Source of the DNA: Primulina eburnea
Taxonomy: Eukaryota > Streptophyta > Magnoliopsida > Lamiales > Gesneriaceae
Assembly (NCBI RefSeq): GCF_022965805.1
Contig: NC_133104.1
Span: 44,188,682 to 44,252,681 of the forward strand
DNA length: 64,000 bases
Direction of reading: 5' to 3'
The translations under genes and the position numbers were made by a program. The notes beneath the pieces were generated by a model. It saw only the letters and a program-made list of their open reading frames with translations. It did no database searches and had not been told where the DNA came from. Shown piece by piece: positions 1,050-51,400 of the stretch. Each line of letters starts with the position of its first letter. Positions within the stretch are counted from its first letter, which is position 1.

Positions 1050-2371
1050 TTAGGGTTTCCACACTGAACACCATACCACAGGTTGTTCTTTCCAACTCAA
1101 ATAGATACCTGAATCATAGACAGAACCGGGGGACGATATGTACGACCACCCTGCTCGATATCGCTTAAGCAATGCTTTGATATCATCGATGACATCGTCG
1201 CTGTATCCAACTGACGAAAAACCCGAATCCTGGAGCCTCTCCGCCCATTGGATCCCCCTCTCCCTCCTCTCATTATCCCCTCCATGATCACTTTCGTCAT
1301 CACAAGCCAAAACCCTTACTATGGTTCTGGAGCATTCCCTCTCCAACATCAACTTCTCATTGCTAGTAGTTGGGAAACTCTCTTCTAACATGTCAAAGTA
1401 TGCTGTATAGAACCTCAAACATTCTTGGAAGCACTTAACAAAGTCGTTTTTGTTAGTTGAAAAGTCAGCCTCCTCTTAACTATTGTGACAACCCTCGGTT
1501 TTAGGGTTTGGATAATTTTGATAACATCCATCCTTTCTTCAACACGAACTTTTCTCAATGCTCCAATACAATTCACAGCCAAAGCTTCATCTTCTTGAAC
1601 CCCCAGACCCTCTTTTGTCAGGTCTCCTAACCGGTATAGGCCGCTCACGACCTTGAACTCAAAGGGCACACCCATGAGCCTTGCAAACTTCTCCATTCTT
1701 GGAGCTATCTCCGTCATAACCGACTTCGCGATGCTGGTTGTAACGACAATAGTCAGCTTTAAACTAGGAGTTTCATCGGTCCTTGTAGCTAAGGCTTCTA
1801 AAAGGGTAGGCCACTGTGTACACAAAGTGCTGCTTATATCAACGATATGAATCTTGGACTCACCCTCTAAGGCTTCCAAAATGGCTCCATTTGATGCCAC
1901 GTGACCAAAAGTTGTCCAAGGGCTCGCTTCTTGAAACTTTAGGATCAATTTTCGGATAGAGTCGAAAGAGTGGCTCTTTTCTGCAACCGATATCAGGGTT
2001 TTGTGACAACGGTGACCGGAGTCGGTCGCCTTACAGAAGAGGGCTTGCAAGAAATAAGATGCTAACTTTTGATCACAATCTCCATATGGAGAAGCAAGCT
2101 CATTCAACATCCACAGAAGGTGATGGATCTTGGTCGAGTCCTTATCAGATAAGGCTCTGGCACACTCTGTGAGTAGTTTTGATGCCCATTTCGCGTCGTA
2201 AGCCTCGACCGAATCCGAGGATTGGCTTGCTGCAGATGTGTTGTTGCTTTGAGGCTGGTTGATGAAGTTGCTTCCTTGTGTGTCTAACTGATCAAGAATT
2301 GGATTGTTTTTTGGGTTGGAAATTGTGTGTAAGAGGCCAGCTTCATTTGAGAGGATTGAGGTTCTGTCCAT
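1050..2371 (-). CDS. SHR: SHORT-ROOT-like GRAS transcription regulator, broken by a one-base frameshift
   Basis: GRAS regulators of the SHORT-ROOT branch act in the nucleus with SCARECROW to set root and bundle-sheath cell identity. The intronless reading frame shows the family landmarks in order: the first leucine-rich region ([20 protein letters not shown], then [20 protein letters not shown]), the VHIID-type core as [17 protein letters not shown], the PFYRE-like part, and the C-terminal SAW region ending [14 protein letters not shown]. The first ATG in frame is at 2371; the frame is open upstream only through a GTG. Near 1475 one base is missing: the frame reads [12 protein letters not shown] and then stops, whereas the next frame gives the expected acidic EEADF followed by [16 protein letters not shown]. 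With the base present the protein would be about 440 residues, a plausible length for the branch. It is either a young pseudogene or a consensus error; all other motifs are intact, so I lean towards error or very recent loss. Confidence 0.85.
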
Positions 2372-2451
2372 ATGATCTAATTCAAGGCACTTGTCCACAA
2401 TTTAAAACTATATGTTTGTAAGTTTATATGCGCCAAAATATAAAGACACAT

Positions 2452-4562: not shown

Positions 4563-6000
4563 GGTTAGATGTTATTTTTGGTTGCATGTATTTTTTAGAT
4601 TATTTATCCAGAAAATTTAAAATATTGATTTGAAATTTTTTTAAGATAAGGAGATAATTAAAAATAATAATTGTTTGGATATGTTTTATGATTTGTCGAA
4701 GATATTGGAAAAAATTATTTGAAAATTATATTGCTATATTTGAAAAGATAATATATATCTTGGATATGATGAGTTTTCTATATAAAAGAGTGTTTATTTT
4801 GAAGATTTACGAGGGTGGTCATGTGCTCCAAGGGACGTCAAGAACTTTTAGTGTTGTATTATTTTGAGAGAGTATTAGTTGTTTTGAATAACATTTTGTG
4901 AAGAAAAATGTGTATTGTTTATTCTGTGTCGCGACAACTGTTACGACGAAATTCAATTATTTTCAACATATTCATTCTGATTTCAAGATTTCAGCTTGTT
5001 GGTGGTATACACATACTCAAAAACTTGTGATTCATTCCTCACAAGAGGAAGGTGACGTTCTTGGGATAGAACAATCCATAATTTCCAAGCGTGATCGAGT
5101 TGGCAGATATTGAAGACGAGTTATGCTTGTCAAATGAAGTCTATTGAATGTGTTCGTCATAGAAACATCATTAGAAAAGAGAGATTTTTTATTTGAATAA
5201 GTCATTGTATGATTATAATACATTTATATTTAGTGGATTTGCTTAATAACTGAGTGCAGCCATGTGGAAGTAGGTCGGTTGGACCATTGTTTGTGTTATT
5301 ATTTTTGCCTTTTTACATTTCTTAATTGGGTTAATTATGCAAACTTTACAAAATAAGATAAAATTTGATTAACAAATAGTATCAGAGCCGGTGCATTATT
5401 TTTTTGATTGAGTGGGTCTCATGTGAGACCGTCTCACGGATACTAATCTGTGAGACGGGTCAACCCGACTCATATTTACAATAAAAAGTAATACTTTTAG
5501 CATAAAAAATTATACTTTTTCATGGATAATCCAAATAAGATATCCGTCTCACGAATTCGACCCGTGAGATCGTCTCACTCGAGTTTTTGCCTTTTTGATT
5601 TGATCCTCAAGTTCAGTTATGCATGATGGAGAATACATTGTACCCTGATTGGAACATCTTAGTTTGATTTCAAAAATTGTCTTTATATCTTTGTCAAAAA
5701 AGTAGATAGTTATGATATTTTTAATTTTCTTGATTGATTTATGAATTTTTCCAAAAATAAGTCAAAGATAGATATTGTTAGATGTTATTTTTGGTTGACT
5801 GTATTTTTTATATTATTAGTCAAGAAAATTTTAAAGATTGATTTGAAGAATTTTTTGAGATAAGAAAATTATTGAACAAGATAATTGCTTGAATATGTTT
5901 TTTGATATGTTGAAGACATGATGAAAATATTGGATGATTGAAAGATAGTGCGTAAATTTTGAAAAGATAATATCTATATAAATGAGCACTTCAACAGAAG
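4563..6000 (+). mobile_element. Decayed LTR retrotransposon remnant with primer-binding site
   Basis: A block starting TTAGATGTTATTTTTGG at about 4564 recurs diverged at about 5778, with matching downstream stretches (GATTTGAA, TTTTT, GATAAG; then TTTGAAAAGATAATAT and CTATATAAA). The first copy runs on to about 5374, where it ends AACA. It is followed at 5377 by TAGTATCAGAGCC, close to the TGGTATCAGAGC primer-binding site complementary to initiator tRNA-Met. I read this as a 5' LTR of about 810 bases, a gutted internal part of about 400 bases, and a partial 3' LTR. No gag or pol frame survives. A MITE is nested in the internal part. Confidence 0.55.
5410..5590 (+). mobile_element. MITE-like repeat, copy A
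   Basis: An element of about 180 bases. Its ends carry the short palindromes GTGAGACCGTCTCAC and GTGAGATCGTCTCAC, and its core reads ATAAAAAGTAATACTTTTAG, then TTTTTCATGGATAA, then CCGTCTCACGAATTCGACC. Four further copies lie in this window. It is nested in the LTR remnant just after the primer-binding site. No coding capacity; probably mobilised in trans, or SINE-like. Confidence 0.7.
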
Positions 6001-6872: not shown

Positions 6873-9800
6873 CTAGTGCTTCCAGCCCTTCAAGAAACCA
6901 TCCACCACATATGGCTCGAGAAATCCCATGAACTGCAAATCAAAATAAATTCTTTCCGTTTTGAACATCTTTGATTTATTCAGATGTAAATCTCTTTTAT
7001 GTATTTATATTGTCCAAACTACTCTTTTACTGTGCATAAAGTATAGCCAAAATGTAAAAGTTCCTTTTGTTACAGCAGCTATTAGAAGATCATAGTTAAG
7101 AACTTCACATAACATTGTATACCTTAATCCCATCTTCAGACCACCGTGTGCCATAACCTTCGGCAATTCTGATCTCCAACACGATTCCATGAGGTGGAAC
7201 AATATGAATGTTCGGCCAGGTACAACGAGTTAATAAGCAACTGATGATATCCAGAGAGAGCCTATTTTTTTTCAGAATCTGGATAAAAATGAAAAGCCTT
7301 GTAACTCCAACAAGTGTCAGATTCATACTGTTTCATACAGACAACCTTCTTTAGAATCTCTCACATGTTTACCACTCAACATGAACATAAATAGACAGAT
7401 ATACTGTCGTGTTCCCGAGATAAAGATCGTGTAACGGGTCTCTTGCTAGCTGAAACCGGGTAATCCAGATTCCAGTTAGTCTTGTTGGACTTTCGTCCTT
7501 GTCGACCTATCGTATGAATGTGGTTAAGGCTCGATAGAGAGAACCTTGCGATCTCTGAAATGAATTCCGATGTACTGGAAGAAAATGTGATATCTTTTAT
7601 TCAACCTTGAACGAATATATATACCAAAAGAGTCCTAGCTCCACAGACCTCTAAAGATGATAACCAAATCTTATCCTAAAAATAAAAAGATAACAAACCC
7701 GATCCTAAATACCAAATCCTATCGAAAACAAATCAAACAGCTACTGAAAAAGATCCTAATCCTTAGACTTAAATATGCCGTGCGTGAATCTCTTGTAAAT
7801 CAAATCTTTCGGCCTATCCCGTGGTGTTTGGCCTGCGGAAATGTTCGTGACATATACTCCCTGTAGATCCAGACCATTGAAGTTAATAATGATATAAACT
7901 CATTAATTCATATTAGAACTTGATCACCAAAACTTAACAAAATGTTGGATCCCAGATGGATTGAACTCGCTAACTATCCTAACTTACTACTCTATTACAC
8001 ATATGAGCCAGATATCACCCAGTTTCCACTACTATTGTTTCATATAAGTTACGAAGAAATCATTTGTCCAACCAATTTCTAGAGATGGAAGAATTTTTAA
8101 TATCTGTAATGATGCGGCCTCGCTGAAATGGAATGAGCTGGGTCAGAAGCTCCAACGGGCCAAATCAATAATTTATAGTGTTTGGGAATTTGAGTGTGGA
8201 CAATGGCTTTTTCAACACCTGCAGATAAGAAAAGAACTCGTGAATGGACGCCGGAAGGGTGTCCGGCGTGACCACTCCGATGCTTAAGTCAGCAGACTTG
8301 TCAAGGAAGAAACTTAGAGCAATATGTATGAATGCTTGAGAATGAAGAATTTTTCAGAAATGAATAGCATCGGAGCCTTCAAGTGTCCCATAGATGAGAT
8401 GTCACGTCGACATGGTATGTCTCCCGGACCCGAATAAATTGTTATCCAGCTCCCCTGGATGTCACGATCATTATGATGAAAGGTGTCAGCATTAATTCCT
8501 GCCTGAAAACACGTCGTATTTCGGGAAATGAATAAGTCTGACACCTCGATAATTGCGCACGTCTTTTCATCTTCCGGCACAATTTCCGAATATGCATCCT
8601 AACCCTTTACGCATTCGTAGATCAACGGTGGTTTTTATCCCCTTGCCTCGATAAATAATCATCCGCTTCCCTTGCAATCATACCAACAACAACTATCATC
8701 AAAAAAGAAAAGTAATGGCCGATGCAAACAGTTCGAGAGTTCCATATATGTCCGAGGAATTCATGGACATGGCTGCGGAAAAACATAAGGCCGCAATAGA
8801 AGATGAGGTCTTCGAAAAGATCCTTGTCTTCTGGGAGGCATTGCAAGGATTACAACTGCTCTACAACTGGGGCGAAGCTACCACTCCCGAGCTGACGGCG
8901 AAGTTGAAGAAATACCGGGAATACTTAAACATTCCCGAGACATCGGATCATTTAGAAGAGGATCGTATCTACGAACTGATGCTTCGTAAGGAGAGGAGCA
9001 TTTTGAATAACATCACTAACACCAAGAGCTATACAGGGGGGGCTACAAGAGAAGTAAGACGCTGTATGTGTCTGTGGAAAGCCCGTGTAGAGGAGGAGTA
9101 TTTTGCTGTAATGCGCCATAATTCCTTCAAATAAAATCTTATTTGAGTTTACTGTCTCTGTATTACTTTATTTAATGCATATTCCCCGAGCTGCATAACT
9201 CAACTAACAAGATTAACTAACAATACGTAACAACCGGGGACGTAAGGGTTTCGTATCTCCAACAAAAAAGACGCCCGAGCCTCGCATCTCCTGGGTTTCG
9301 GATGGGATGCCGGGGCATCATCCTTTCAAGTCTTATCAAAAAGACCGGGGGGTGCGACATCTTGGGCGTAAAAAACGTTGCTTCGTACTGATTAATGCAC
9401 TAATGACACGCGTCTCTTCCACCCAACTGTCACCATCGTTTAGCATTTTGAGAATGATTATTTATGATACCTTAATATGTTCGACTCAAGTATATCCGCC
9501 GGGCTTAAAAATAACATGCCGGGGCGTTGTGTCTCCCGGGCTTAAAATAACTTGCCGGGGTCTTAAACCTCCCGGGCTAAAATAACTTGCCGGGGTCTTA
9601 AACCTCCCGGGCTGCCAACCAACATGCCTGAGTCCCGAACTTGTAATCCTAGAAAAGGAATAAGCCGGGAATAAAACTCTTCCGGTTTGCTGACGTGGTG
9701 TCATGATGATATGCACTTTATTAAACTCCTGTCAAACGCAAACGTTCCGTATTCCAAGATACATCAGATTTGACGCTTGGATAACCGTTCAGACCCTCCA

Positions 9801-12800
9801 CCTGCCCCGCACAATTTACGAAGGGCATCCTGATTGTACACATGTCTAGATTCGACGGTTTTGATCAACTCTTACCTTTGAATAATAGAGGGGATGATTC
9901 GGCTGGCTGAGACTCTTGGACTTCCTCCATATTTAAGGACGTTCACCTATAAATAAGAGGGGATAGATGCAAAGTGACCCTCAATCCAAAATGTCGAGTT
10001 CAAGTGGTTCCAGTGCCTGCAGCAGTACACATGTCCTGGTGACTCCGGAGATGCGTCCTCATGTGGAGGAACTGAAGAGGAAAATTGAGGAACGCATATG
10101 GGCGAAGGTCATGGCCGTGCGGGACAAGGTTCATGACTTGGATTATACATACCGCAATCGTCTCGCCACTACTCGAGCACAAAGAACAAGAGCGAGGAAG
10201 TATATCCGAGAATTTGTAGTAGACCGGGTGACAGATCTGGTTGATGATGAAGTTCTGCTGCATATGATGCTGTGGAAAGAGTGGCATGCCCTGAACAAGA
10301 TAATGAAGAATGAATCCTTCGTCAACCTCCGCATTCACGAATTAACTAATTGGATAACGGAGTGGCAGGATTCTGTATCTAACATAATGGATTCCATAAC
10401 TTTTCGCCGCTATTTTATGTAATGGAAATTTTATCGACTTCTATTGCTTCATTACTCTTCTGCAAATAAATCTTGTGCGAATTTATGCGGACCGAAACAA
10501 TAGACTTACAGTTATTTGTAATAACCCGATCTTTTAAAACTGAAACGGCCCTTGTGACATACCTCATTAACATACGATTCCAGGATCTGGCACCCCCCGA
10601 ACTTAGAATATAATCCCGGGCTATCAAATCTTTTGACTGTAACAAGATGCCGGGGTCTCGGACTACTCGGACTTAGAAATCCCCCTCCCGGGTCTCTAGG
10701 TTTCCCGAGCTATGAAACAAACCTGCCGGGTTCTCCCAAACCTCCCGGCTTACCCACACAGCATTATAATGACAAGTGTTCATCTATCCCAACGGTCAGT
10801 AATGTTTCGTATTCCGAGGAGATAAGCCATCATGACGCCTCGATCTGTGTAACTGTCTTTTCATTCTACCCGTCGCGACTTTCGAGGCGCATCGAAACCG
10901 CACACGTGTTCACTCAGTCGACGATTCAGATCGTCCTTCATCCCTTATATATAGCAACCCAAGGTTTTTCCAAAAATCACTTTCAAATCACCATTGTCGG
11001 CGAAGCCCTTGCAAATTCTTCTCTCGCAGTTTCCGGCGTTCGAAGTCTCCCTATTCCGACGATCTTCCACCATCTCCGCCCTAAATACTCGTAAGTTTCC
11101 TCTTCTCATTATGTCTAATTCTACTTCTTCTACTTCCGGGGCCAATGCACGAGGCTCGTCAGGATATGAATCCGCTGCACTTCGTTCTGATTCGTCTCCT
11201 TCTCCCACCTCTCGCCACCCTTCTACCCAGACTGTCAGAAAACCTATAAGCTTTAAACCCCCATCTTCTTCCAGACCTTCTAAACCCTCTTCTTCGGGCC
11301 TTTCCCGGATCCCTAAAAAAGATAAGGGTAAGGGCAAGGTCCAGGCTTCCGACCGCCCTTTAACCGAGGTCCTCGAGGTTCCATGGTTCTCCTCTTTGAG
11401 CAGCTCCTTGCGCCCCGGAGCAGAGAAGGAACTTCGAACCCTAGGGGTCATTCCCCCTACCTATCCTATTCTCATACCCGGATCTTCTGACCGGGCGGAT
11501 CAACCCCCCTCTGGTTATATTACCTTTTTTCGGGACCAGCTTCGAAATGGTCTTCGATTTCCCATTGCCCCGTTCTACATCGAGGTTGCCAAATTCTTTG
11601 GTGTACCTATTAATCAATTTCACCCCAACTCCTTCCGGATCATGGCTTCGGTTTTTGTTCTCTTCCGTATGCATGATCTGGTAATAAATTCCAAAGTTCT
11701 GCATTATTTTTTTAGACCCTGGCTCGGGGCTCCGTACCTCGACCATTCCAAAGTCCCGGGACCTGTTTCCCGGCCTAAGGTTCCGTACCTTAGCTCTACA
11801 TAAGCCCAGGGCATTACACCCTGGCTCGGGGCTCCGTACCTCGACCATTCCAAAGTCCCGGGACCTGTTCCCCGGCCTAAGGTTCCGTACCTTAGCTCTA
11901 CATAAGCCCAGGGCGTTACACCCTGGCTCGGGGCTCCGTACCTCGACCATTCCAAAGTCCCGGGACCTGTTCCCCGGCCTAAGGTTCCGTACCTTAGCTC
12001 TACATAAGCCCAGGGTGTTACACCCTGGCTCGGGGCTCCGTACCTCGACCATTCCAAAGACCCGGGACCTGTTCCCCGGTTTAAACTTTTGTTTGTTTCA
12101 GATAGTTGCATCACAAATGTTCAGTTAGTATACAGGAGACCGGTGCCTAGTTTTCTATCCCGGTTAAGTTTTTAACACTTGAAAGATTTCTAAGACTTGT
12201 TAAATCAGGAGTATCCTAGTCCTGTTGAGATCGAATGACTAAGTTTTTATGAAGATTGCGAAGAAAGATAAAAGGAAAGGAAGTATTACATTACTAATAA
12301 GCCCGAAGACAGGAAGTGAATTTAAAAATAAGAAAGAGATTACAAACCTATTCTATATCAACAGGGTCGGTGCCTGGCTCTTTCTCCTCCTCTGTCGGCT
12401 GCTTTTTTTCTTCTCCTTCCTCCTCTCCAGTTTTTCCTTCTCCTTCCTCCTCTCCAGTTTTCTCTTCTCCTTCCTCCTCTCCGGTTTCTTCTTCTTTGTC
12501 TTCCGCCCCGGCTCCTGCAAGGGATGCAATGGCTAGCCCGAAGTCTGGAAAGTTTGCCCTATCCTTGGGTATAAGCCCAGCTCCTTTAAATTGTTGACGA
12601 CATCTGTCGAAGCCGGTTTTAAAGAAAGGATAGGCTCTATGCTCAACTGCTGCCTTGAATTCTGGGGATTCCAGGAAAGAGGTCCTCAGTTGCTCTTTTT
12701 GGCTCTCAGACTCGGCCAGGGCCACCTCCGCTTTCTCAGCCCGTGACATCTGTTGTTCTATGGTGTCCATCGGGGAGAGGTTTTTGCCTTCAAGAACCGA

Positions 12801-15800
12801 ATTATGTCCTCGGAGAGTTTCCTCCCTGATGTGACCTTCATTTATATCATCCCGGGCTTTGGCCAGTTCCGCCTGGGCAGACTCTACAGAACCCCGAAGA
12901 GTAGCCACCTCTTCTGCATAGAGTCCCTTCACTCGGGAAAGTTCCTCCTGGAGGCGCTCATGTGCTTCCCTAATGGCTTGGAGTTGGGGGGCCTGTCGAT
13001 TGGTCAAGAAGGTCACCTCTTCGTGGGCTGACATCATCATGTGAGCACCCTATTTAAAAGAGAAGGCGGATCAAAATAAATAAATAAATAAAAATAATAA
13101 ATAAGGAAAAAAGAAGCTTACAGCCAGGAGCTTGTTCACGCCCTCCTGATATCGAGGGGTCGGCGGCACACTCTGGAGGAAGGCCTCATCAATAGGAAGG
13201 AGCATCTGCTTGAAGAGGTTTGCCACGACTCGGGAATCTTTTTCAGTGAAGAAACTAGCCCGAGCAGATGGCACAGAGAGGAGAGGCCCTTGCAAGGGCT
13301 CTTGGAGAGGCTCTTGGAGAGATTCTGGGGAAGGCTCTTGGAGGGGCGCCTGGTCATCGCGCGGAAGGGGAGGTGTGTCTGACTGATACGCTTGAAAGGA
13401 AGCCTGGCCTCCCGCTTGGTCATCTTCACTAAGAGTCAGAACCGGGATGGTCATGACTCTTCGTTGCCTTTGGCGAAGGGGGAGGAAGTCTTCTTCGTCT
13501 TCCCTAGATTCAGGCGCCGCTCTCTTATGTTCAAATTGTACCCGGGCCGTCTCCTTTGCTCGGGCAGCCACATCCTCAGCTCTTTTTTCGGCAGCAGCCT
13601 TTCGGGCTGCCCTCTTCTTCTCCTTGGCTGCCTTCTCGGCTGCCCATCTTTTGGCAAAAACCTCTTCCATTAAATCTGCATAAAGAGCAAGAAAGGGTAA
13701 AATCCAAGTGCAAATATAAAGCAAGGGAGCAATCGCATAACAGGTAAAGGGAAGTTACCGGGTTGAAGGCCCGAGCCAGCAACTTCATCAATCACTTGGT
13801 CAATCGGATCCTCAACTCGGGCACTTAAATGATGGGTAACCAGGTGCTCTTGGGCAATAAGGGCGGAGGAAGAAAACTTTTTACCCTCTACCAAGGCGAG
13901 GCTTCGGGTATAAAATTCTTCAGATTTACACGCCCGAGGAAGTTCTGGCTGAGGGGGAAGAGAAGGGAGGAACCCGGTTGAACAATCAAGAGAACCCGGG
14001 AGGCGAATGAAAAAATATCTTCCTTTCCACCCCTTTTGAGAGGAAGGGATGTCATCAAGAAAGCGGGCATTAAGCCGGGCAGAAAGGGAAAAGGCATTAT
14101 CTCCTAATCTACAAATAAAAAAGTAATGCAGAACTTTGGAATTTATTACCAGATCATGCATACAGAAGAGAACAAAAATCGAAGCCATGATCCGGAAGGA
14201 GTTGGGGTGAAATTGATTAATAGGTACACCAAAGAATTTGGCAACCTCGATGTAGAACGGGGCAATGGGAAATCGAAGACCATTTCGAAGCTGGTCCCGA
14301 AAAAAGGTAATATAACCAGAGGGGGTTGATCCGCCCGGTCAGAAGATCCGGGTATGAGAATAGGATAGGTAGGGGGAATGACCCCTAGGGTTCGAAGTTC
14401 CTTCTCTGCTCCGGGGCGCAAGGAGCTGCTCAAAGAGGAGAACCATGGAACCTCGAGGACCTCGGTTAAAGGGCGGTCGGAAGCCTGGACCTTGCCCTTA
14501 CCCTTATCTTTTTTAGGGATCCTCGAAAGGCCCGAAGAAGAGGGTTTAGAAGGTCTGGAAGAAGATGGGGGTTTAAAGCTTATAGGTTTTCTGACAGTCT
14601 GGGTAGAAGGGCGGCGAGAGGTGGGAGAAGGAGACGAATCAGAACGAAGTGCAGCGGATTCATATCTTGACGAGCTTCGTGCATTGGCCCCGGAAGTAGA
14701 AGAAGTAGAATTAGACATAATGAGAAGAGGAAACTTACGAGTATTTAGGGCGGAGATGGTGGAAGATCGTCGGAATAGGGAGACTTCGAACGCCGGAAAC
14801 TGCGAGAGAAGAATTTGCAAGGGCTTCGCCGACAATGGTGATTTGAAAGTGATTTTTGGAAAAACCTTGGGTTGCTATATATAAGGGATGAAGGACGATA
14901 TGAATCGTCGACTGAGTGAACACGTGTGCGGTTTCGATGCGCCTCGAAAGTCGCGACGGGTAGAATGAAAAGACAGTTACACAGATCGAGGCGTCATGAT
15001 GGCTTATCTCCTCGGAATACGAAACATTACTGACCGTTGGGATAGATGAACACTTGTCATTATAATGCTGTGTGGGTAAGCCGGGAGGTTTGGGAGAACC
15101 CGGCAGGTTTGTTTCATAGCTCGGGAAACCTAGAGACCCGGGAGGGGGATTTCTAAGTCCGAGTAGTCCGAGACCCCGGCATCTTGTTACAGTCAAAAGA
15201 TTTGATAGCCCGGGATTATATTCTAAGTTCGGGGGGTGCCAGATCCTGGAATCGTATTTTAATGAGGTATGTCACAAGGGCCGTTTCAGTTTTAAAAGAT
15301 CGGGTTATTACAAATAACTGTAAGTCTATTGTTTCGGTCCGCATAAATTCGCACAAGATTTATTTGCAGAAGAGTAATGAAGCAATAGAAGTCGATAAAA
15401 TTTCCATTACATAAAATAGCGGCGAAAAGTTATGGGATCCATTATGTTAGATACAGAATCCTGCCACTCCGTTATCCAATTAGTTAATTCGTGAATGCGG
15501 AGGTTGACGAAGGATTCATTCTTCATTATCTTGTTCAGGGCATGCCACTCTTTCCACATCATCATATGCAGCAGAACTTCATCATCAACCAGATCTGTCA
15601 CCCGGTCTACTACAAATTCTCGGATATACTTCCTCGCTCTTGCTCTTTGTGCTCGAGTAGTGGCGAGACGATTGCGGTATGTATAATCCAAGTCATGAAC
15701 CTTGTCCCGCACGGCCATGACCTTCGCCCATATGCGTTCCTCAATTTTCCTCTTCAGTTCCTCCACATGAGGACGCATCTCCGGAGTCACCAGGACATGT

Positions 15801-18800
15801 GTACTGCTGCAGGCACTGGAACCACTTGAACTCGACATTTTGGATTGAGGGTCACTTTGCATCTATCCCCTCTTATTTATAGGTGAACGTCCTTAAATAT
15901 GGAGGAAGTCCAAGAGTCTCAGCCAGCCGAATCATCCCCTCTATTATTCAAAGGTAAGAGTTGATCAAAACCGTCGAATCTAGACATGTGTACAATCAGG
16001 ATGCCCTTCGTAAATTGTGCGGGGCAGGTGGAGGGTCTGAACGGTTATCCAAGCGTCAAATCTGATGTATCTTGGAATACGGAACGTTTGCGTTTGACAG
16101 GAGTTTAATAAAGTGCATATCATCATGACACCACGTCAGCAAACCGGAAGATTTTTATTCCCGGCTTATTCCTTTTCTAGGATTACAAGTTCGGGACTCG
16201 GGCATGTTGGTTGGCAGCCCGGGAGGTTTAAGACCCCGGCAAGTTATTTTAAGCCCAGGAGACACAACGCGCCGACATGTTATTTTTAAGCCCGGCGGAT
16301 ATACTTGAGTCGAATATATTAAGGTATCATAAATAATCATTCTCAAAATGCTAAACGATGGTGACAGTTGGGTGGAAGAGACGCGTGTCATTAGTGCATT
16401 AATCAGTACGAAGCAACGTTTTTTACGCCCAAGATGTCGCACCCCCCGGTCTTTTTGATAAGACTTGAAAGGATGATGCCCCGGCATCCCATCCGAAACC
16501 CAGGAGATGCGAGGCTCGGGCGTCCTTTTTGTTGGAGATACGAAATCCTTACGTCCCCGGTTGTTACGTATTGTTAGTTAATCTTGTTAGTTGAGTTATG
16601 CAGCTCGGGGAATATGCATTAAATAAAGTAATACAGAGTCAGAGACAGTAAACTCAAATAAGATTTTATTTGAAGGAATTATTGCGCATTACAGCAAAAT
16701 ACTCCTCCTCTACACGGGCTTTCCACAGATACATACAGCGTCTTACTTCTCTGGTAGCCCCCCCTGTGTAGCTCTTGGTGTTAGTGATGTTATTCAAAAT
16801 GCTCCTCTCCTTACGAAGCATCAGTTCGTAGATACGATCCTATTCTAAATGATCCGATGTCTCGGGAATGTTTAGGTATTCCCGGTATTTCTTCAACTTC
16901 GCCGTCAGCTCGGGAGTGATAGCTTCGCCCCAGTTGTAGAGCAGTTGTAATCCTTGCAATGCCTCCCAGAAGACAAGGATCTTTTCGAAGACCTCATCTT
17001 CTATTGCGGCCTTATGTTTTTTCGCAGCCATGTCCATGAATTCCTCGGACATATCTGGAACTCTCGAACTGTTTGCATCGGCCATTACTTTTCTTTTTTG
17101 ATGATAGTTGTTGTTGGTATGATTGCAAGGGAAGCGGATGATTATTTATCGAGGCAAGGGGATAAAAACCACCGTTGATCTACGAATGCGTAAAGGGTTA
17201 GGATGCATATTCGGAAATTGTGCCGGAAGATGAAAAGACGTGCGCAATTATCGAGGTGTCAGACTTATTCATTTCCCGAAATACGACGTGTTTTCAGGCA
17301 GGAATTAATGCTGACACCTTTCATCATAATGATCGTGACATCCAGGGGAGCTGGATAACAATTTATTCGGGTCCGGGAGACATACCATGTCGACGTGACA
17401 TCTCATCTATGGGACACTTGAAGGCTCCGATGCTATTATTCGCCGCAAATTATTTTAGACTGATCGGGACAGCGAGCAAGACTCTAGCCCGACTATTTTA
17501 GGGATGGGTGGTGATACCTTTGAAAGGGCCCGGGTCATAGTTTCGTTGCATGGCCCGTATGAAGACCGAGAGGCCGGGTATTCCTACATGACCGTCGGGT
17601 GAGATGATTAACTAGGGCCCGGGTTCTCATGTCAGAGCCGAGGGCTCAATACCCAAGTAACCTCGTTGGGGGGTCCGAGAAAGGGACTGGACAGGCAGTC
17701 AACATCCCTTATTCTTGGAGTCGGGAAGAAAGGGACTGGACAGGCAGTCAACGTCCCTTATTCTTGGAGTGTCCGCGAAGCTATTGGGAAGAAAGGAACT
17801 GGACAGGCAGTCAACGTTCAAGGGTACAAGTGGTAGGTACGCCCGCGTATCGAGGTAACCCTAGTTTTCCTTCCTATAAATAACAGGTATAGTTGTCATT
17901 TACGGATTCTGAAAAATTCTTCATTCTCAAGCAATCATACATATTGCTCTAAGTTTCTTCCTTGACAAGTCTGCTGACTTAAGCATCGGAGTGGTCACGC
18001 CGGACACTCTTCCGGCGCCCATTCACGAGTTCTTTTCTTATCTGCAGGTGTTGAAAAAGCCATTGTCCACACTCAAATTCCCAAACACTATAAATTATTG
18101 ATTTGGCCCGTTGGAGCTTCTGACCCAGCTCATTCCATTTCAGCGAGGCCGCATCATGTAACAAACTAGATGTATTATATTTTAATTTTCAGATCTATTT
18201 TAGTAATAAAATTTAACTTGCAACCAACAGAGTTCAGAAAAACGAGGTTGAGTCAAGTTAGATCATCAGCCCAGCAAACCGTCTTGAGTATCACTATTCA
18301 TAAGCTCATAAACAGCTTGCGCTACTAAATATTAAATAATTATTTTATTGTCACTATAATAAGAAATGCCAAAATTAAAAAATAAACTTTTTTATTCGTA
18401 ATTGCATGCAATATTTTGCATGATATATAAAAATGAGGATAACTTTTTTAATCATCCTGACCACACTCTCGATTAAAAAGATCTCATAATATCAAACTAT
18501 TTACCATTCGTATAATCAACATATAATTACGATGTGACAATACCAACAACCACCCACTAAGGTTATGAGAGAGAAGAAAACATGTTAAAAACCCATTTGT
18601 CAATTCACATCAAGAATTATGACCTATCTGAAAAAGGTGAAAATAAAAAGCACAAAGTGGGAACAATCAATAAAGTTTTTCAACATTGAAAAATATTTTA
18701 GGGAAGCAGAAAAATAAATATTTATCCATGAACTCGATTCAAGATAAAGTTTACATTATAAAGACCGCTCATGTTTTAAAATATTCCCACGATCAAATCG

Positions 18801-25713: not shown

Positions 25714-25725
25714 AGTTTGGCCATT

Positions 25726-26532
25726 ACACGATTGCTATCGTGCCGAAAATGTGTCTTACGACTAGCTTCTATGACATGCAAAGCTTTGTTGGCTAAAACG
25801 CTTTGGAACATTCATTTAAAGAAGGACAGTCTGTGGATAAAGTGGGTGAATCATGTGTACAGTCATTATAATGATGTTTGGAGTTGGGAATGGACAAATG
25901 ACCAATCGCCTCTCATCAAACATATTATTCAGATTCGTGATGAAATCCTTATGGCACATGGCTCTAAACAGGCGTCGGTTGCTGTATTGAACAAGTGGTT
26001 TGGATCTTCGAAAGGCTTGACTGGAGCTTATGATTTCTTTGTTGGTCGGTGGACAAAGTGGCCGTGGAAACCGCTGTTATCTAAACAGTGTATTCTACCA
26101 AAGCACAAATTCATTTTGTGGTTATTTGCCCATCGGAAATTACTTACTCGAGACAGGTTGGGTTTCTTAACTGATAGATCATGCGTTCTTTGCAAAGCCT
26201 CTGACGAATCTGTCGTTCATTTGTTCTTTAATTGCGATATATCTTCTTCAATATGGAATTCTATAAGATCATGGCTCGACATGCGTAAAATGATGAAAAC
26301 TCCTACAGCCATTCTATCGGCCTTTAGGGGTGTCTATCGTGGAAGCTCAAACCTAAACAAGATGAGGTGTGTGGCACTTGCGGCAACAGTTTATCATATT
26401 TGGAATTTAAGGAATGGGGTAATCTTCGATAATGTCGTGCCGAATGCTGAGGGGATAATCAACAAGATCAAGATCCACGTACTAAGAAGCCTGCCAAATT
26501 ATTTACACATGTTGCCATTCTCGGATTACTGA
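25726..26532 (+). pseudogene. LINE ORF2 C-terminal part (zinc-binding reverse-transcriptase tail domain)
   Basis: The frame, open from the insertion point to the stop at 26530-26532, contains the linker after reverse transcriptase (CRK, then CKALLAKTLWN and LWIKWV) and the zf-RVT domain: WPWKPLLSKQCILPKHKFIL, LLTRDRLGF, CVLCKASDESVVHLFFNCD. The cysteines and histidine of the finger are present. There is no proper start codon, since the polymerase and endonuclease parts were never copied. The intact frame suggests a fairly young insertion. Confidence 0.9.
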
Positions 26533-35300: not shown

Positions 35301-36587
35301 TCATTTACTTATACGATAAACATGTATTTTACAACATCGAACGTTTTTCATTTTACTAAAAATTATATATGTTGATAATTATATAAATCATAATTTTCAA
35401 ATCATAAAGTAACTCATACATTTCATGTCAATCATTCTCTTAGCAGTAACATTTGTTATGTATCACCATATATGAATAAAACTAAAAAATCACATGATAA
35501 TAGTTTATGAATGGATCTCATGTGACACCGTCTCACAGATATTAATTTGTGAGACGAGTTAACCCTACATATATTTACAATAAAAAGTAATATTTTTAGC
35601 ATAAAAATTAATATTTTTTCATGGATAACTCAAATAAGAGATCCGTTTCACAAATACGACATGTGAGACTGTCTCACACAAGTTTTTGTCATAGTTTACA
35701 TATAGTAAAGACGATATTATGATTATTATTTGAAATATAAGATTTTGATGGATCATTGGCAGTGCATAATATATATTTATATTCCTACCAAAAGTAAGTG
35801 TGGTACAATTATTCGAGCAGACATAGAAAAAAAGCTAGAATCAAATTGGGTGGAACTTTATAAGAATAATTCAACCAAAGGCCGAGCACATACAAACAAG
35901 TAGAATAGTAATATAATATAAATTAAATAAAAAGAATACAATAGAATAATAATAAAAAAAGTATTTTGAACTTCAATTATGGGAGCAAGCAGCCTTCAAG
36001 CTGTTGTCCCCATAAATAGTTAAACACTGCTGTGTGCGTTGAAAAAAAAAAAACATAATCAATCATGCAATTAATATCTTATACTAAATTCTAATATTAT
36101 ATTAATCTGAAAAATTGTCGTATTATTTTCATGAACATAACCATAAGCTCATTATATCACACGAGTTTGCCACATAAACTCGAATTCCTGAGAGTACTAT
36201 TCCCATATGTTACACTTGGAGTGTTTATTCCACTATAAAGTTGTAAAATTTTAGCCACATATAATCTACACATGATTTCAAATTTCATTAAAATATGATA
36301 GACTCACATGATTTAACGATGTTGAGGTATGAAAAAAATTACTCTCGACAGATGATAGACATATTCATATATTTATGAGTTTTATGTGAAAACTATATTT
36401 ATAACGCTAAAAATATTTTTCTCGCAAAATTAATTAAAAGTTGAGGATGAGATCAAACCCTTTGAAAACAGATATTTCTTTGGATACCTTCTTCACAACA
36501 AGACAAGCAACCAAAACATAAGGCGAGAAAAGAGGATGAAATTTATTTTCAATTTTTCAAAATTTATAATAAAATAAAATTCAAGAT
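32394..36587. other. Gene-poor AT-rich DNA
   Basis: The left end is the promoter region of the SANT gene. The rest is AT-rich with one MITE copy (35512-35690), a possible degraded relative near 34075-34140, and no frame with protein character. Confidence 0.5.
35512..35690 (+). mobile_element. MITE-like repeat, copy B
   Basis: Same order as copy A: TCTCATGTGACACCGTCTCA, TTACAATAAAAAGTAATATT, TTTTTTCATGGATAACTC, then GTGAGACTGTCTCACACAAG. Confidence 0.7.
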
Positions 36588-37939: not shown

Positions 37940-40900
37940 CTAGTAAGTTGGAGGAGGTGGAGACGTGTATACATAAACTGGTGGTGGAGGTGACTTTATA
38001 GGCGGGGGAGGTGATGTATAGTAGTAAGGAGGTGGAGGTGATGGTGAAGGCGGAGGCGGGGACTTGTAAATGTAATGTGGATGAGGGGAAGGTGGCGGTG
38101 GAGAAATGTAGTGGTATGGTGGTGGGGGCGATGGTGATGGTGGTGGTGGGGAAATGTAATGGTAGGGAGGTGGAGGAGATGGCGATGGTGGTGGAGGTGA
38201 TTTGTAGTAGTAGGGTGGCGGCGGTGAAGGAGATGGTGGGGGAGGAGATTTGTAATAGTAGGGAGGGGGCGGAGATGGCGAAGGTGGCGGTGGGGACTTG
38301 TAGTAGTATGGTGGAGGAGGATATGGTGATGGTGGTGGTGGAGATTTATAATAGTAGGGAGGTGGTGGAGATGGAGAAGGTGGTGGTGGGGACTTGTAGT
38401 AGTATGGTGGAGGAGGAGATGGGGATGGTGGTGGAGGGGATTTGTAATAGTATGGCGGTGGAGGTGATGGTGAAGGTGGTGGTGGAGACTTGTAGTAGTA
38501 TGGATGATGAGGAGATGGAGATGGTGGCGGAGGGGATTTGTAATAGTATGGCGGTGGAGGTGATGGAGATGGTGGCGGTGGGGACTTGTAGTAGTAGGGA
38601 TGATGAGGAGTTGGAGATGGTGGCGGAGGGGATTTGTAATAGTATGGCGGTGGAGGTGACGGCGAAGGTGGTGGTGGAGACTTGTAGTAGTATGGATGAT
38701 GAGGAGATGGAGATGGTGGCGGAGGGGATTTGTAATAGTAAGGAGGTGGTGGAGATGGCGAAGGTGGTGGCGGAGACTTGTAGTGATATGATGGAATGGG
38801 GTATGGTGATGGTGGTGGCGGGGATTTATAGTAGTAATATGGTGATGGAGGAGGTGGAGACTTATATACGTAGGTTGGCGGAGGAGGAGACTTATAAATA
38901 TAAACCGGTGGAGGTGGTGGCGGTGATTTATACACATAAGGTGGCGGAGGTGGTGGGGACTTGTAAACGTAAGTTGGTGGAGGAGGTGATTTATAAATGT
39001 ACACCGGTGGTGGTGGGGGTGGCGACTTGTAATAGTAGGGGGTTGGGGTCGGCTTTGGCTTATTACATTCTTCATAAGGAGTCTTTGGAGCATAAGCAAA
39101 TGATTTAGCATATAACACAACTTCATGCTCAGTCTTAGATTTCACTTTGAGCTTGGCTCCTTTCTTTCCCCAATGAAGATTTGTTGGAATTTTGCATTTG
39201 GAATTCTTAGGTGGTGCATGGAGCTTGGCCTTGCATGCCTTAGCTCCATATTTTCCATATTCAAATCCTTCAATGGGAATACTATATTTTCCATTTATCT
39301 TTGTCTTGCCGTACGCCACAATTTTCTTGTCGCCCACCTTGCATGTCACCTCAACAATTGCACCTGTATTTATATATTATAAAAATATTAAATTAATTTT
39401 TTTTAAATAAGAATGATTAAGTCTTATTTCTTAATTAAAGATATGTATGACATTAATAAATAAATGATAGAATTGCTAATTACACATATGAAGTCTTGAT
39501 TGATTTCTTCAAAAATATAAGCATACTGTTTTTAGATATTTAAATGAAAAAATGCAAACAAATAATAAAGGAAATTTTTTTTAAAAAAAAATCGGAGATT
39601 AATGGGTCCACTTTGAGTGAAAATTCAAACATTAGACGAAAATGACATACATTAAGTTTTGATAAGTTCTTTATAGCTTAATTTTTTTTTTTTGGAAAAA
39701 AATAGAATATATATGCATATATAAGAATAAAGTTGGGTTACATGCATTCGATATATTGTCAGTTAATACATCTTTACATGAAAGATTATATTCCCTCTTT
39801 TTATTCTTTTTTTTACAAACAAAAACAATTAAATAAGCAAGAAAAATTAAAATAAATAATGAGAATTGTTTACCTTTGAGATGTTTCTTATCATGAGATT
39901 TGATGGGATATGTCCAATCATAGCACTTGTAACAATATACTTTTCCTACAACCTTAACAACCAATGGATGATGTGGAGGGTAGTGAGGGACATGCGGAGG
40001 TGGTGGAGATTTATAGTAATATGTAGGAGGGGGTGTCTTCACCGGAGGTGGTGGTGAAACATAGTGATATGGAGGTGGATATGACTTTGTGGGTGGAGGT
40101 GGTGAAGTATAGTGGTATGGTGGCGGTGATTTTTTTGGTGGTGGTGGAGATATGTAATAGTATGGTGGCGGTGGTGATGGTGACGGTGGTGGTGGGGATT
40201 TGTAGTAGTAATGTGGTGGATGTAATGGTGATGGAGGTGGTGGAGATTTGTAGTAGTAAGGTGGTGGAGGAGATGGTGACGGTGGTGGTGGGGATTTGTA
40301 ATAGTAATGTGGTGTAGGTGATGGAGGTGGTGGAGATTTGTAGTAGTAAGGTGGTGGAGGCGATGGTGACGGTGGTGGTGGGGATTTGTAGTAGTAATGT
40401 GGTGTAGGTGATGGAGGTGGTGGAGATTTGTAGTAGTAAGGTGGTGGAGGCGACGGTGATGGAGGTGGAGGGGATTTGTAATAGTAAGGTGGAGGTGGTG
40501 AAGGCGAGGGTGGTGGTGGAGATTTGTAATAATAAGGTGGTGGTGGAGAAGGTGATGGTGGAGGAGGAGACTTGTAATAATATGGTGGAGGTGGTGATGG
40601 CGAGGGTGGAGGTGGTGATTTGTAATAATAAGGTGGTGGTGGAGAAGGTGAAGGAGGTGGTGGTGATTTGTAGTAGTAGGGTGGTGGTGGTGATGGTGAG
40701 GGTGGTGGAGGAGACTTGTATTCATAAGGTGGTGGTGGTGGAGGAGATTTATAATAATATGGTGGATGTGGATGTGGTGATGGTGGTGGAGGAGACTTGT
40801 ACTCATAAGGCGGTGGTGGAGGTGGCGACTTGTACTCATAAATTGGTGGAGGAGGAGACGAATAAACATAAGGGTCTGCTGATACAATGGTAGAAGTAGC

Positions 40901-40975
40901 CAATACAGCCATAGCCACCATGAGCTCCGGCAAGAACCGTCCCCAGGCAGCGGGGCGGTGGCCACGAATCGTCAT
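37940..40975 (-). CDS. Chimeric extensin with an internal Pollen Ole e 1 domain
   Basis: Exon 1 is 40975-39874 and exon 2 39363-37940; the intron has GT/AG, the phase closes and the product is 841 residues. Start: the ATG at 40975 gives a signal peptide (hydrophobic LMVAMAVLATSTIVSA) cut before DPYVYSS; an ATG ten codons upstream spoils it. Residues about 34-335 and 470-841 are extensin arrays of YYYKSPPPPSP type, with Ser-Pro4 blocks for arabinosylation and YYY/YXY for cross-linking in the wall. Between them, at about 340-470, is an Ole e 1-like domain (VVGKVYCYKCYDW, VEVTCKVGDKKIVAYGKTKI, KACKAKL, SKCKIP, EECNKP) with the expected cysteines. Part of that domain is coded by each exon, so the intron splits it. 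The role is a secreted structural wall protein. TTTATATA at 41111-41120 on the minus strand may be the TATA box. Confidence 0.9.
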
Positions 40976-41399
40976 TCTTTCACCGGAAAATGCCACCAAT
41001 GCCAACCAATTTGTATGAGTAAGTTGCTCTTGGCCTGGTCAACAGAAGGACAATGTGCTATTGCTGCTGCACAGCTTTACTTGGGGTGGAGATGAACAAA
41101 GTTGATTTGTGTATATAAATAGGAGATGGATAGATACATTTATTGGCTCCTCACAATAAAATAATTTATTGAGTCACTTCAAAACAGCTGTAATATCACA
41201 TTCTTTAACTCCAATAATCGAACCAATTCGAGTTTTCATTTTATTTATTTTCTATTGCTCACCTGCTACGGAATCGCGCTATGTGTACTAACAATATTTA
41301 CACAGATAAATAATTCTTCGTATAATTATATTTTGTGTGTATATATATTTATATATGACTTGATCAAGTCATAGGCTCTTAAAGAAACAAACGTCATAT

Positions 41400-42604: not shown

Positions 42605-42785
42605 TTGAGTAAGTTTATTTTGAGACGATTTCACGAATTTTTATCTGTGAAATATGTCAATCATACTGATATTCACAACAAAAAGTAATACTCTTAACAT
42701 AAAAGTAATATTTTTCATAGATAACTCAAATAAGAGATCTATCTCACAAAATATGATCCGTAAGACTATCTCACACAAGTTTTTG
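42605..42785 (+). mobile_element. MITE-like repeat, copy C (diverged)
   Basis: It retains ACAAAAAGTAATACTCTTA, TTTTTCATAGATAACTCAAA and CTATCTCACACAAGTTTTTG in the order of copies A and B. Confidence 0.65.
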
Positions 42786-43424
42786 CCGTTAATCTTATAC
42801 GCAATAGAAAATGGTACACAGACTAGAGCAAAATTTTAATTTTTAATTTTGATTTTTAATTTTAATTTTAGTCTAAACATATCCCACGTGATTTTCGACC
42901 AAAGGTAATTGGAAATGACAGATACTGATTAACAATTAATTGTTAAAAAATTCAAAACTATGATACAATTTATTCACTTAAAAAATTAATAAAGTCTTCC
43001 AAGATTTTTATTTAGGATTTGAATATTTCTCCGAACTATACATATAAGACGGTGCTGTTGCAAGGAAAACGTTGAATAATTTGAAAATTAAGTTTAATGA
43101 ATATACATAGTACAATAATTTTATTAAGTTAATAAAATTAATTTTTGAATCCATGATTGGTTAATAATTAATTAGCGTTAGCTCAATTGATCTGGAAATT
43201 GAATGGCATGATTGACGCACTGATTGTATATTTTTCTTCGATAAATTCACACCGAATATATTTAGATAAAATGTGAATTCAACGTATATATGTAGATGAA
43301 TAAATAGTAATTTTATTTTTTAAAAAAATAAATAAACGTCACTTGTACAAAAAATAACCAAACTATTAATTAGGATTATTATTGGTATAAATATATTAAT
43401 ATTATAATTTAGTTTTATAAAATG

Positions 43425-43605
43425 ACAAAAATTTGTGTGAGACGGTCTCACGGGTCATATTTGTGAGACTGATCTCTTATTTGGGTCACCCATGAAAAAT
43501 TATTATTTTTTATGCTAAGAGTATTACTTTTTATTGTGAATGTGGATAGGGTTGAGCCGTCTCACAGATTATAATCTATTAGATGTTCTCACATGAGACC
43601 AACTC
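43425..43605 (-). mobile_element. MITE-like repeat, copy D (inverted)
   Basis: Opposite orientation: TTTGTGTGAGACGGTCTCAC, CACCCATGAAAAA, GTATTACTTTTTATTGTGAA, then TTCTCACATGAGACC. It is 0.65 kb from copy C, so the pair could form an inverted repeat in RNA. Confidence 0.7.
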
Positions 43606-44428
43606 TTATAAAATAAACCCATCACTTGCACAATTTTTTTTAAAAAAACTATTAATTTGGGATTAATAGAGGTGTGTGTGTGTGTGTATATATATTATAG
43701 TTTAGTGTGTATTTATTCTTTCATTAAATGCATGTGATTTCTCGATGATGAGCATCCATGCACATGCATTTAATCAAAATTCGAAGAACATGCACAATCA
43801 GAAATAATAATAAATTTTATATTTGTAATAATAATATGGAACTTGAAATCATACTTGAAGAAATCAAAATCATATATAAATAATATACGTACTTCTATAT
43901 ATTAAAATAAATAAAATTTTGATTGAGAATTCCATCTCAAATTCGAGGTTGAAGGCTTTACCCTCTAATTACTGAAAAAAATATCCATCTTTACAATTAA
44001 GCAATAGTTTTTCTCTAAAAATTAAAATTAAAATGTAAAATTACATCTCAAATTCTGTGGTGAAATATCTGTCTTTGATTAATATTTTTCCTACCAAAGT
44101 TAATTTCGAATAAAATTACTGATAAACTCAATTTGCAAATTTTTAAATCTTAAAAAAAAAAATCACCAAAGACATGTTCTGCTAATTCATGTAATGACCA
44201 TTCAGTCCTATGACTAAATGGAATTTAATTTAAGGACATGATGATCCCTAGACAGAGACATCCCATCTCACGAAACAGGACAGAGTCGTCTGCAATTTTC
44301 CAAAATAATACTTTTTTATGTAAATATTATATTATACTACATAAAATAACATATTTATTCGAAGACATTATTCCTGCCTAGGCTTTACCGGGAAAGTGTT
44401 ACGAAATTTTATGTATATATAAAACTAT

Positions 44429-48400: not shown

Positions 48401-51400
48401 ACCCAAATTTATCTAGTTTCGCTCACTATCCTGGTCAATTAACTTCTTTTCTTCAATTAATGAGCTGTTGGGAACAGAGTGTGTCTGATGTAAACAAAGA
48501 CAAGGTTATACTACAAGAGACTTTAATCAGCGGCCCAAATGGATGGGTACATGAACAAGGGGGAAAACACTCAACATCAACCAACCAACTTAAAGAAAAT
48601 GCAAGAAAATCACCTCAATCCGCCATATTAAAGATTCAGCTAATGGTGATACCCGAACACAAGTACCAGTTCTTGCCAAAAAGAAAGTTTGGAGCTTGGT
48701 GCTGCATAAGACATTGAAGGCCAGTTAGATCAGAAATACACCTACCTATGATGAGTAAATTCCCATACCAGAGGTCACCCTTGCATGAAGATAGAAGCAA
48801 ATTGATCATATCCTGCTTTCTCGTACCTTGATTGCGTTTCTGAATATTGGTAGAGTAAAAAGAATCGTAAATTTATCAGAAAATATGAAGAGTTGAGAAC
48901 TGTAGATATAAACAGTGTGTTAAACACAGACTCCAAATATTTATTATTGTACAAGTGCAAGTGATTTATTAGCTCCACAAATACAAAGTTCCAGAGCATG
49001 ATGAGAAAATCGCATTGAATCTCGCAGATGACTAAGATGTCAATTAAACAAGGTAGAATTTCTTTGGTTTAAAATTTGAGAAGTTCAATACCATGGTCAT
49101 GCTATAAAAATACATATAGCAGCGCCTAAACCCAGGGTAATACCGTGTCACCACTTTTCCATTAGTAAGAATGCAGGAATGAAAATAATCCTTGAGATGT
49201 CATGAGAAAAAAGGGCCTATGTTTTCTTATGTGATAGATCATATCCACTTAAACTATTAAATGATAAAACAAAGTGCACAAATTGCCAAGTGCATCCAAT
49301 TATGAAACCACCGCGACTTAGTATGCTTAAAACAATAACTCTAACTCTCAACAAATAGCAAGAAGTGCCGGGTGTGCACTATTAACAGAGAAATGCTTCA
49401 TTTACCTTTTCAACCAGTCATTTTAGTAACGCAAATCATAATGGAGACCATTTTCAAGTTATACATTGAATCAAGAAAAGGACAAGGCAAACAACACCAG
49501 CCATTCAATGACGAACAGAACCAAACATATCTATAACAAGAGTAGCTATTCATTGGACGCTAATTAGGACTGCCTAGAGTGCTACAAAGTAGCTTCATGT
49601 AACTTCTTTATTGCAGAACTACAAATACTTCTGTTTGTGACACTGACTAGATCATAACAACATGATACAAAATATGTGGCTCATATCTGCCCACACAGTT
49701 AAGTCTCCTTCTGTGTGGTCACCAAAAGTCTATACTAACTTTAGGAGCATAAATCATGGTGTCAACACAAATCAGAGTGAACCATCCATTATGCTCTATT
49801 TCTTTGGACAGAAGTTTTCCTGAATCGTTAGTAAATGAGGCATCTTCCGTAAAAGAAAAAACTGAAGATCATTGAATGAAGTACTAATAAGAACGTTGGT
49901 CAACTTATTAAGCTCATCGTCCACATTAGATTCAAATATTACAAGAGTTCGATAAAAAAACATAACATGGTACAAAATATGTGGCCCGTATCTGTCCACA
50001 CAGTAAGTCTCCTTCTGTGTAGTCACCAGAAGCCAATACTAACTTTAGGAGCGTAAACCATGGCGTCAACACAAATCTAGAGTGAACCATCCATTATGCT
50101 CCATTTCTTTGGACAGAAGTTTTCCTGAATCGTTAATAAATGAGGTATCTTCTGTAAAAGAAATAACTGAAAATCATTGAATGAAGTACTCGTAAAGACA
50201 TTGATCAACTTATTAAGCTCATCGTCTACATTAGATTCAAATATTCCAAGAGTTCAATAAAAAAACATTAATGAGCCAAGTGTAAAGTACACCAGTAGAG
50301 GTTCAAATTTAGTGCCTGACATACACAACCTACACCCATTTTCAACTATAGACTGACAGAATCACCTCCTTTGGGATGTGGAAAGTAATATTTCCCATAA
50401 TGTGATTAATAACAGAATTGAGATTACCCCTTATAACCATTTCCAAACACGATATGTTGATAGGTACTGTTTTTTCACATCTACTTCATGGATCCAGTTC
50501 AAGTATTGGAGTTGGTGGATGAATCAAATCAATGACTCAATCTCTGGCTAAAACTATACAAATGATTGCACATATATAAACAACATCGAACATTTTATGA
50601 ACATACCTTGTTAAGCATGTTCAAAGCCTCCCGTAATTCATCCGTGTTAAGCACATTCAAGACCTCCTCTAAGTCATTGTCATCTACTTCATTCTTCGAT
50701 GGAAAGACACATATGTATCCTGGCTCTTTATTAGCCCAATACCAATAAAATCTATTCAAGCTCCATTCAACTTCATAAAGAATGCATGTCTAAAATAAGT
50801 GTTTTAACTCGATTAAAGATATTTTCACCTGAGAGACCCTTTATTGCCTCAGTCAAATCAGCTACCTCAGGGTATGAGACATTTGATATTCGAAACCATG
50901 GCCCTGAGAGAAGAAAACCAACAATTTTTCTTACAATTAAGATATTATAGTCAGAACCTAAAAGATCCCGACCACAGCAACAGTAAGACATTAAACATGT
51001 CACTTTAGCAATTGCACGTCACTAGAAAACAGGCATGCCGAAAAATTTTAAACCAAACATGATACTGCATTAATGATTTGCAGCTTCACAATAAAGTAAC
51101 AATAACATATATGTAAATCTTGGACACAATCAATTAACAGATTTTTTTCATAGGTCTTCAGCACACAGGAAAGAACTCTTTCAACTTTAGTTTTCCAAAG
51201 TATAAGTGAAAACAAGAAACTTTACTTTAAACAGTTTCCAACTTCAATAACAATTGGAAAATCCTCTTTTGTTTACCAGTAGGATAATAAACTGACAATA
51301 GAAGTTCTGCAGAACAAAACAGCAGAGCAGTCGTGGAACCATGTCAGCTTCTAATTTCTAAATGTCTATGCTAGTGACCCACATGCTAAAAAATTCAACA

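Follow-up and report, generated by a model that had tools for sequence, protein, structure and literature searches.

We examined an insertion at 8105 to 18161 in a stretch of 64,000 bases from Primulina eburnea (contig NC_133104.1, positions 44,188,682 to 44,252,681), hereafter the window, which has 36% GC. In the assembled sequence, the insertion consists of two inverted arms, each with a U5 end of a long terminal repeat (LTR) on its outer side, around an asymmetric centre, and it is bracketed by a single pair of target-site duplications (TSDs). Going inward from either end, an LTR-like stretch is followed by three open reading frames (ORFs), designated ORF1, ORF2 and ORF3. The features, from left to right, are the following.

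8105 to 8109, no strand: left TSD, TGTAA, equal to 18157 to 18161
8110 to 8359, minus strand: left R-U5, outer end U5, element sense on the minus strand, 98.8% identical to 18156 to 17907, with a conserved block at 8264 to 8291 on the minus strand
8360 to 8362, no strand: breakpoint of the left arm, three unassigned bases opposite 17438 to 17906 of the right arm
8363 to 11714, minus strand: left arm, putative internal pol-distal region, element sense minus, ending inside the ORF3/PF04195 gene
8715 to 9134, plus strand: ORF1, 139 amino acids, open on the left, antisense to the element
9967 to 10422, plus strand: ORF2, 151 amino acids, open in both arms (right copy 15407 to 15862)
10994 to 11714, plus strand: 5' part of ORF3 with PF04195 (Transposase_28), cut by the central junction (Pfam E=5e-6, 27.1 bits against a cutoff of 26.2, in 10955 to 11803)
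11712 to 11715, no strand: central junction, where the left arm meets the tandem array, TTA being common to both sides
11712 to 12079, no strand: tandem array, 102-bp unit repeated 3.6 times, contiguous with the right copy (TRF score 701)
12080 to 14115, minus strand: loop, containing the remaining ORF3 gene and downstream sequence in single copy, continuous with the right arm (ORFs 12348 to 13049, 13071 to 13754 and 13670 to 14338, minus strand)
13670 to 14338, minus strand: right-hand ORF3 PF04195 domain (Pfam E=3.3e-7, 30.9 bits against the cutoff of 26.2)
14116 to 17437, plus strand: right arm, putative internal pol-distal region, element sense plus, 97.9% identical to the left arm by BLAST
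17438 to 17906, plus strand: right-only stretch with TATAAATA at 17875, U3-like repeats, a guessed polypurine tract (PPT) at 17500 to 17511 and a guessed U3 start at 17512
17907 to 18156, plus strand: right R-U5, outer end U5, with the conserved block at 17975 to 18002
18157 to 18161, no strand: right TSD, TGTAA, equal to 8105 to 8109

BLAST within the window identified the arms (8110 to 11714 and 18156 to 14116) as inverted copies of each other, with 98.8% identity between the outer segments (8109 to 8359 and 18157 to 17907) and 97.9% between the inner ones (8363 to 11714 and 17437 to 14116); the arm lengths of 3.6 to 4.0 kb given in an earlier note on this DNA are thus correct. That note had also proposed to align and date the arms. 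In a recount on the MAFFT alignment, from which the bases of the target site and the border of the large gap had been excluded, the arms differ by 33 substitutions (21 transitions and 12 transversions) over 3,559 aligned columns, corresponding to a Kimura two-parameter (K2P) distance of 0.0093. At the plant substitution rates of 1.3e-8 and 7e-9, this distance translates into 0.36 or 0.67 million years (My), respectively, if all change postdates the insertion. The divergence is somewhat uneven along the arms (20 of 1,548 sites before 9700 versus 13 of 2,011 after it; Fisher p=0.053), and we attach no interpretation to this. The largest length difference consists of 469 bp found on the right only (17438 to 17906) against three bases on the left (8360 to 8362), a net of 466, and is accompanied by smaller indels of 6 bp, 35 bp (inside a short tandem repeat) and 1 bp.

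The arms end in TGATGCGG at 8110 and CCGCATCA at 18149 to 18156, each of which occurs once on the plus strand of the window, and outside these ends homology ceases, except for one adjoining base and scattered matches. TGTAA brackets the exact ends on both sides, as the earlier note had claimed, and of the seven register shifts tried, the exact register alone gives a match. The probability that two random 5-mers agree ranges from 0.0017 (window) to 0.0020 (flanks), and 89 of 53,943 pairs with this same spacing do so. The pair lends support to the further claim that the insertion integrated as one unit. Moreover, the TG..CA ends and the 5-bp TSD, both canonical for LTR retrotransposons, point to a DDE integrase.

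At about 2650 to 2850 on the minus strand, the window also holds an old gypsy-type LTR-like remnant, unrelated to the insertion, which adjoins ORFs at 1050 to 2398 (minus strand) that look GRAS-like. In the right arm, TATAAATA at 17875 (plus strand) is followed after 99 bp by the conserved block at 17974, while in the remnant the same TATA sequence at 2834 is followed after 120 bp by a block of the same kind at 2714 (minus strand). The order is identical in the two, and therefore the promoter faces outward and each outer end is a U5; the block itself we take to be a known R-U5 feature of plant gypsy LTRs. The combined pattern of TATA box and block gave three matches in the window (both arms and the remnant), while shuffled sequences averaged 0.00, and, since it was built from those three sites, this demonstrates specificity and not discovery. 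Furthermore, the PF04195 gene runs antisense to the LTR polarity in both copies. The assignment of both outer ends to U5, which the earlier note had put forward, is thus backed by these antisense genes as well as by the polarity control within the window. Apart from the inverted pair, R-U5 sequence recurs in the window as a 66-bp match (77%) to the old remnant; an LTR partner in direct orientation was not found in the window, so that the canonical pair of direct LTRs is absent.

As regards the content of the arms, the right copy of ORF1 has an early stop caused by a substitution, and near 14326 a 1-bp difference from the left copy disrupts the right ORF3 frame. ORF1 and ORF2 are distantly similar (BLASTP 6.9e-8 in a one-on-one comparison), and a TATA box lies upstream of ORF2 and of ORF3. 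A Pfam scan of every stop-to-stop ORF of 80 amino acids or longer in the insertion (36 in all) yielded two above the cutoff, both with PF04195, and no gag, reverse transcriptase or integrase domain in any of the 36. Matches below the cutoff (such as MAX_effector 4e-4, Spore_coat_CotO 1.1e-3, zf_C2H2_6 1.3e-3 and Tup_N 3.9e-3) were not used. Protein database searches returned no relative of the ORF3 frame at E<=0.001 among 830 candidates (right-arm 14146 to 14835, out of frame at its end) and none of ORF2 among 26 candidates. Viral contigs scanned with the PF04195 piece of the right copy yielded 14 pattern matches and no relative, and Rfam at the gathering threshold and ARAGORN returned nothing in the window.

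PF04195, despite its name Transposase_28, is a domain of LTR elements according to a survey of the Retand lineage (Vicient 2025, PMC11963269). That survey also reports a region of 2.9 to 6.6 kb between pol and the 3' LTR, LTRs of 315 to 1,194 bp, antisense PF04195 ORFs between pol and the 3' LTR in 97% of clusters, and tandem arrays in about half, with units of 8 to 100 bp, mostly beside pol or the 3' LTR (PMC11963269). The right half of the insertion, from 18156 to 11712 (6,445 bp), matches this anatomy except for an array unit that is 2 bp too long. The antisense PF04195 gene, the tandem array and the LTR R-U5 suggest that the arms represent the pol-distal part of a Ty3/gypsy element of Retand type, and we infer that pol would lie beyond the array. 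In the earlier note the arms had been described as the 3' end of a Tat-like element with antisense genes and an LTR; the antisense genes and the R-U5 hold, and Retand fits better than a generic Tat assignment.

The two arms are not equivalent. The left arm halts at 11714 within ORF3, and the 2.4-kb centre (11715 to 14115) belongs to the right copy only, in which same-strand ORFs extend to 12348 over two putative intron-like gaps and are followed by the array. The left arm also has no equivalent of 17438 to 17906, the stretch that holds the TATA box, the repeats of U3 type and the candidate PPT and U3 start. The earlier description of a palindromic insertion therefore stands as to the inverted arms, while the palindrome is an imperfect one, with an asymmetric centre and a left arm deprived of the promoter-bearing part of the LTR. 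The left gap ends at 17907, 32 nucleotides past the first T of TATAAATA. Transcription in plants is expected to start at about that distance past the TATA box, and the gap end is accordingly close to the expected start; a random breakpoint on a 4-kb arm would fall within 5 bases of one given point in about 0.3% of cases (calculated by hand and post hoc). The PPT candidate at 17500 to 17511, found in the right arm only, is weak and a guess. TGATG at 17099, which mirrors CATCA, was passed over as an alternative LTR start on account of the pyrimidines in front of it; we prefer 17512, which is itself unproven.

We consider it probable that one integration event inserted an inverted double cDNA that carried U5 at both ends and derived from the 3' part of a Retand-type element. 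How such a molecule arose is a separate matter, on which we tentatively favour, at somewhat less than even confidence, the joining of two minus-strand tails. Minus-strand DNA would start at U5 and proceed inward, covering R and U3 before the antisense genes; the strand on the right would stop inside the tandem array after about 6.4 kb. At the TTA overlap, either a template switch or end joining would link its 3' end to a further minus-strand tail from the same family, after which copying would proceed outward to the U5 end of that tail. The left tail would be strong-stop DNA from the 5' end of the RNA that probably landed at an internal site rather than at the 3' R, which would explain why it has no U3. 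Having kept the PPT region, the right strand could form its own plus-strand end, while for the left tail, which has no PPT, the second strand would be supplied by the copying strand itself. The product, with a U5 terminus at each end, would then be inserted with a 5-bp stagger. What the sequence itself shows is an insertion of inverted structure with U5 ends and one TSD pair; that the tails were joined in this way, that the first transfer was mis-aimed and that integrase did the inserting, we infer. The unequal arms, the left without the TATA-bearing part of the LTR and the right with the loop, are what leads us to read two joined tails and not a perfect palindrome; a loop present once is expected of a strand that turns round or switches without having reached its end.

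The nearest competitor, possible although we doubt it, is that a single minus-strand cDNA folded back (snap-back), copied its own 5' part, became double-stranded and integrated through two U5 ends, the promoter stretch of the left arm being deleted later. One molecule would account for both the once-only loop and the near-identity of the arms, the TTA overlap would mark the turn, and the divergence of 0.93% is consistent with ageing after insertion over 0.36 or 0.67 My. However, a hairpin has a single open end, so that by our reasoning two ends require a further step, and a separate deletion of 469 bp must happen to stop near the expected transcription start; we take a switch between two minus strands to fit better than a simple hairpin of this kind. 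Two near-identical elements may also have inserted nearby in opposite orientation and been fused later by an internal deletion, and inverted neighbours and internal deletions are ordinary in plants, just as a short overlap at the central joint is often seen at deletions. We nevertheless regard this as improbable: unrelated TSDs must share one 5-mer (0.0017 to 0.0020), two close copies of like age must both have lost their 5' parts, and no stretch between the halves was assigned to host DNA.

An assembly error uniting two different loci seems very unlikely, given that the joint links unlike sequences with three shared bases and no long shared repeat, that 33 substitutions and four indel events distinguish the arms, which would not be so in a read artefact of the fold-back kind, and that the TSD match would be due to chance. 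We give equally little credence to a DNA transposon with long terminal inverted repeats. Its plain definition covers inverted arms flanked by a direct target repeat, but an R-U5-like block with an upstream TATA box lies near the ends, the ends are TG..CA with a 5-bp TSD, and the antisense PF04195 gene is accompanied by no other domain above the Pfam cutoff in the 36 ORFs. None of these ORFs has a DNA-transposon transposase domain, which would likewise be true of a non-autonomous transposon. An inversion by recombination after insertion was rejected by reasoning, as it would reorient the interior without altering the outer ends.

Returning to the integration of an inverted double cDNA, several observations weigh against it or against its details. 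The main proof of one integration is the TGTAA pair, the window contains one copy only of such an insertion, and according to a review, a U3 end together with a U5 end is what infection normally employs (PMC11054761). As for the Retand assignment, the 102-bp array unit is just above the 8 to 100 bp reported in the survey cited above, and the left PF04195 match barely exceeds the cutoff (27.1 versus 26.2 bits). The PPT candidate includes T residues, and the PPT, the U3 start and a primer-binding site are all unproven; a second TATA-like site at 18089 would shift the transcription start elsewhere. An LTR start at 17099 would leave part of U3 in the left arm and weaken the case for a mis-aimed transfer, and the left gap could be a later deletion.

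If the reading is true, two U5 ends can serve a plant Ty3/gypsy integrase in vivo, so that insertion would not strictly depend on a U3 end, and the left arm may preserve, as a fossil, a first strand transfer that went astray. LTR finders that require direct LTRs would overlook insertions of this kind. Since each arm has inward promoters, transcripts across the centre could form a long hairpin RNA, and the inverted arms could feed plant RNA silencing against the same family; Mu killer, which reportedly silences MuDR in maize, offers a model for silencing in trans. A study of maize Grande documents a promoter of the antisense gene and notes the suggestion that antisense transcripts form double-stranded RNA with the element RNA (PMC7264820), which makes hairpin silencing by the present locus a fair prediction and not a finding. 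It is possible to speculate, although we think it rather unlikely, that inverted U5-U5 insertions are a recurrent and overlooked by-product of plant Ty3/gypsy reverse transcription whose central hairpin RNA could silence the parent family in trans.

Elsewhere in the window, a dispersed repeat of about 185 bp occurs at 5409 to 5596, 35501 to 35692 and 42605 to 42790 (plus strand) and at 43422 to 43615 (minus strand), with 75 to 85% identity and GTGAGAC/GTCTCAC-like ends, and is possibly a miniature inverted-repeat transposable element. An ORF at 25717 to 26532 (plus strand) with a zf-RVT domain (Pfam 9.6e-15) is probably the remnant of a long interspersed nuclear element. Two neighbouring extensin-like ORFs (37940 to 39349 and 39671 to 41005, minus strand) carry long SPPPP/YYYKSPPPP arrays, and 49659 to 50268 is a tandem duplication of 305 bp, 91% identical.

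Palindromic, or inverted duplicate, cDNA forms occur in retroviruses and in yeast Ty1, where to our knowledge they have been reported as unintegrated or recombined forms and not as integrase insertions with two U5 ends. We recognised no integrated inverted retroelement with two U5 ends in a literature search whose scope excluded most subscription journals, so that absence in print is not implied. The portion available of a paper on LTR-element recombination makes no mention of inverted or palindromic forms (PMC5668417), and the head-to-head elements in the accessible part of an Arabidopsis long-read study concern VANDAL21 (PMC12312487). With respect to the reported Retand elements, the insertion shares the long region between pol and the 3' LTR, the antisense PF04195 gene and the tandem array, and differs in having no gag-pol, apparently no primer-binding-site region and no direct LTR pair, the 3' part alone being present, twice and inverted (PMC11963269). 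DIRS-1 is likewise flanked by inverted terminal repeats, but it uses a tyrosine recombinase and circular intermediates, whereas the insertion described here has a 5-bp TSD and TG..CA ends (PMC5633606). In favour of our reading, a retroviral study scored concerted integration in assays whose only substrates were U5-end DNAs: there too integrase joins U5-type ends to target DNA, though in a test-tube reaction and not in a plant chromosome (PMC3790719).

The nearest precedent is represented by the template-switch complexes of grasses, which carry one TSD pair and were found twice in about 7 Mb of Triticeae sequence, once in rice, once in the available maize sequence and never in Arabidopsis (Sabot and Schulman 2007, PMC1950507). 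As in those complexes, one TSD pair surrounds what may be the joint product of two cDNA templates, for which an origin during reverse transcription and insertion as one unit were proposed, and the outer LTRs are highly similar (the comparison covers the R-U5 portion, as the left LTR has no other part). The grass complexes, however, have three direct LTRs and two complete cores, whereas here there is no internal R-U5 copy, the cores are inverted and incomplete, their 5' halves being missing, and the outer ends are both U5. Relative to them, the inverted U5-U5 form is new as far as our literature search can tell.

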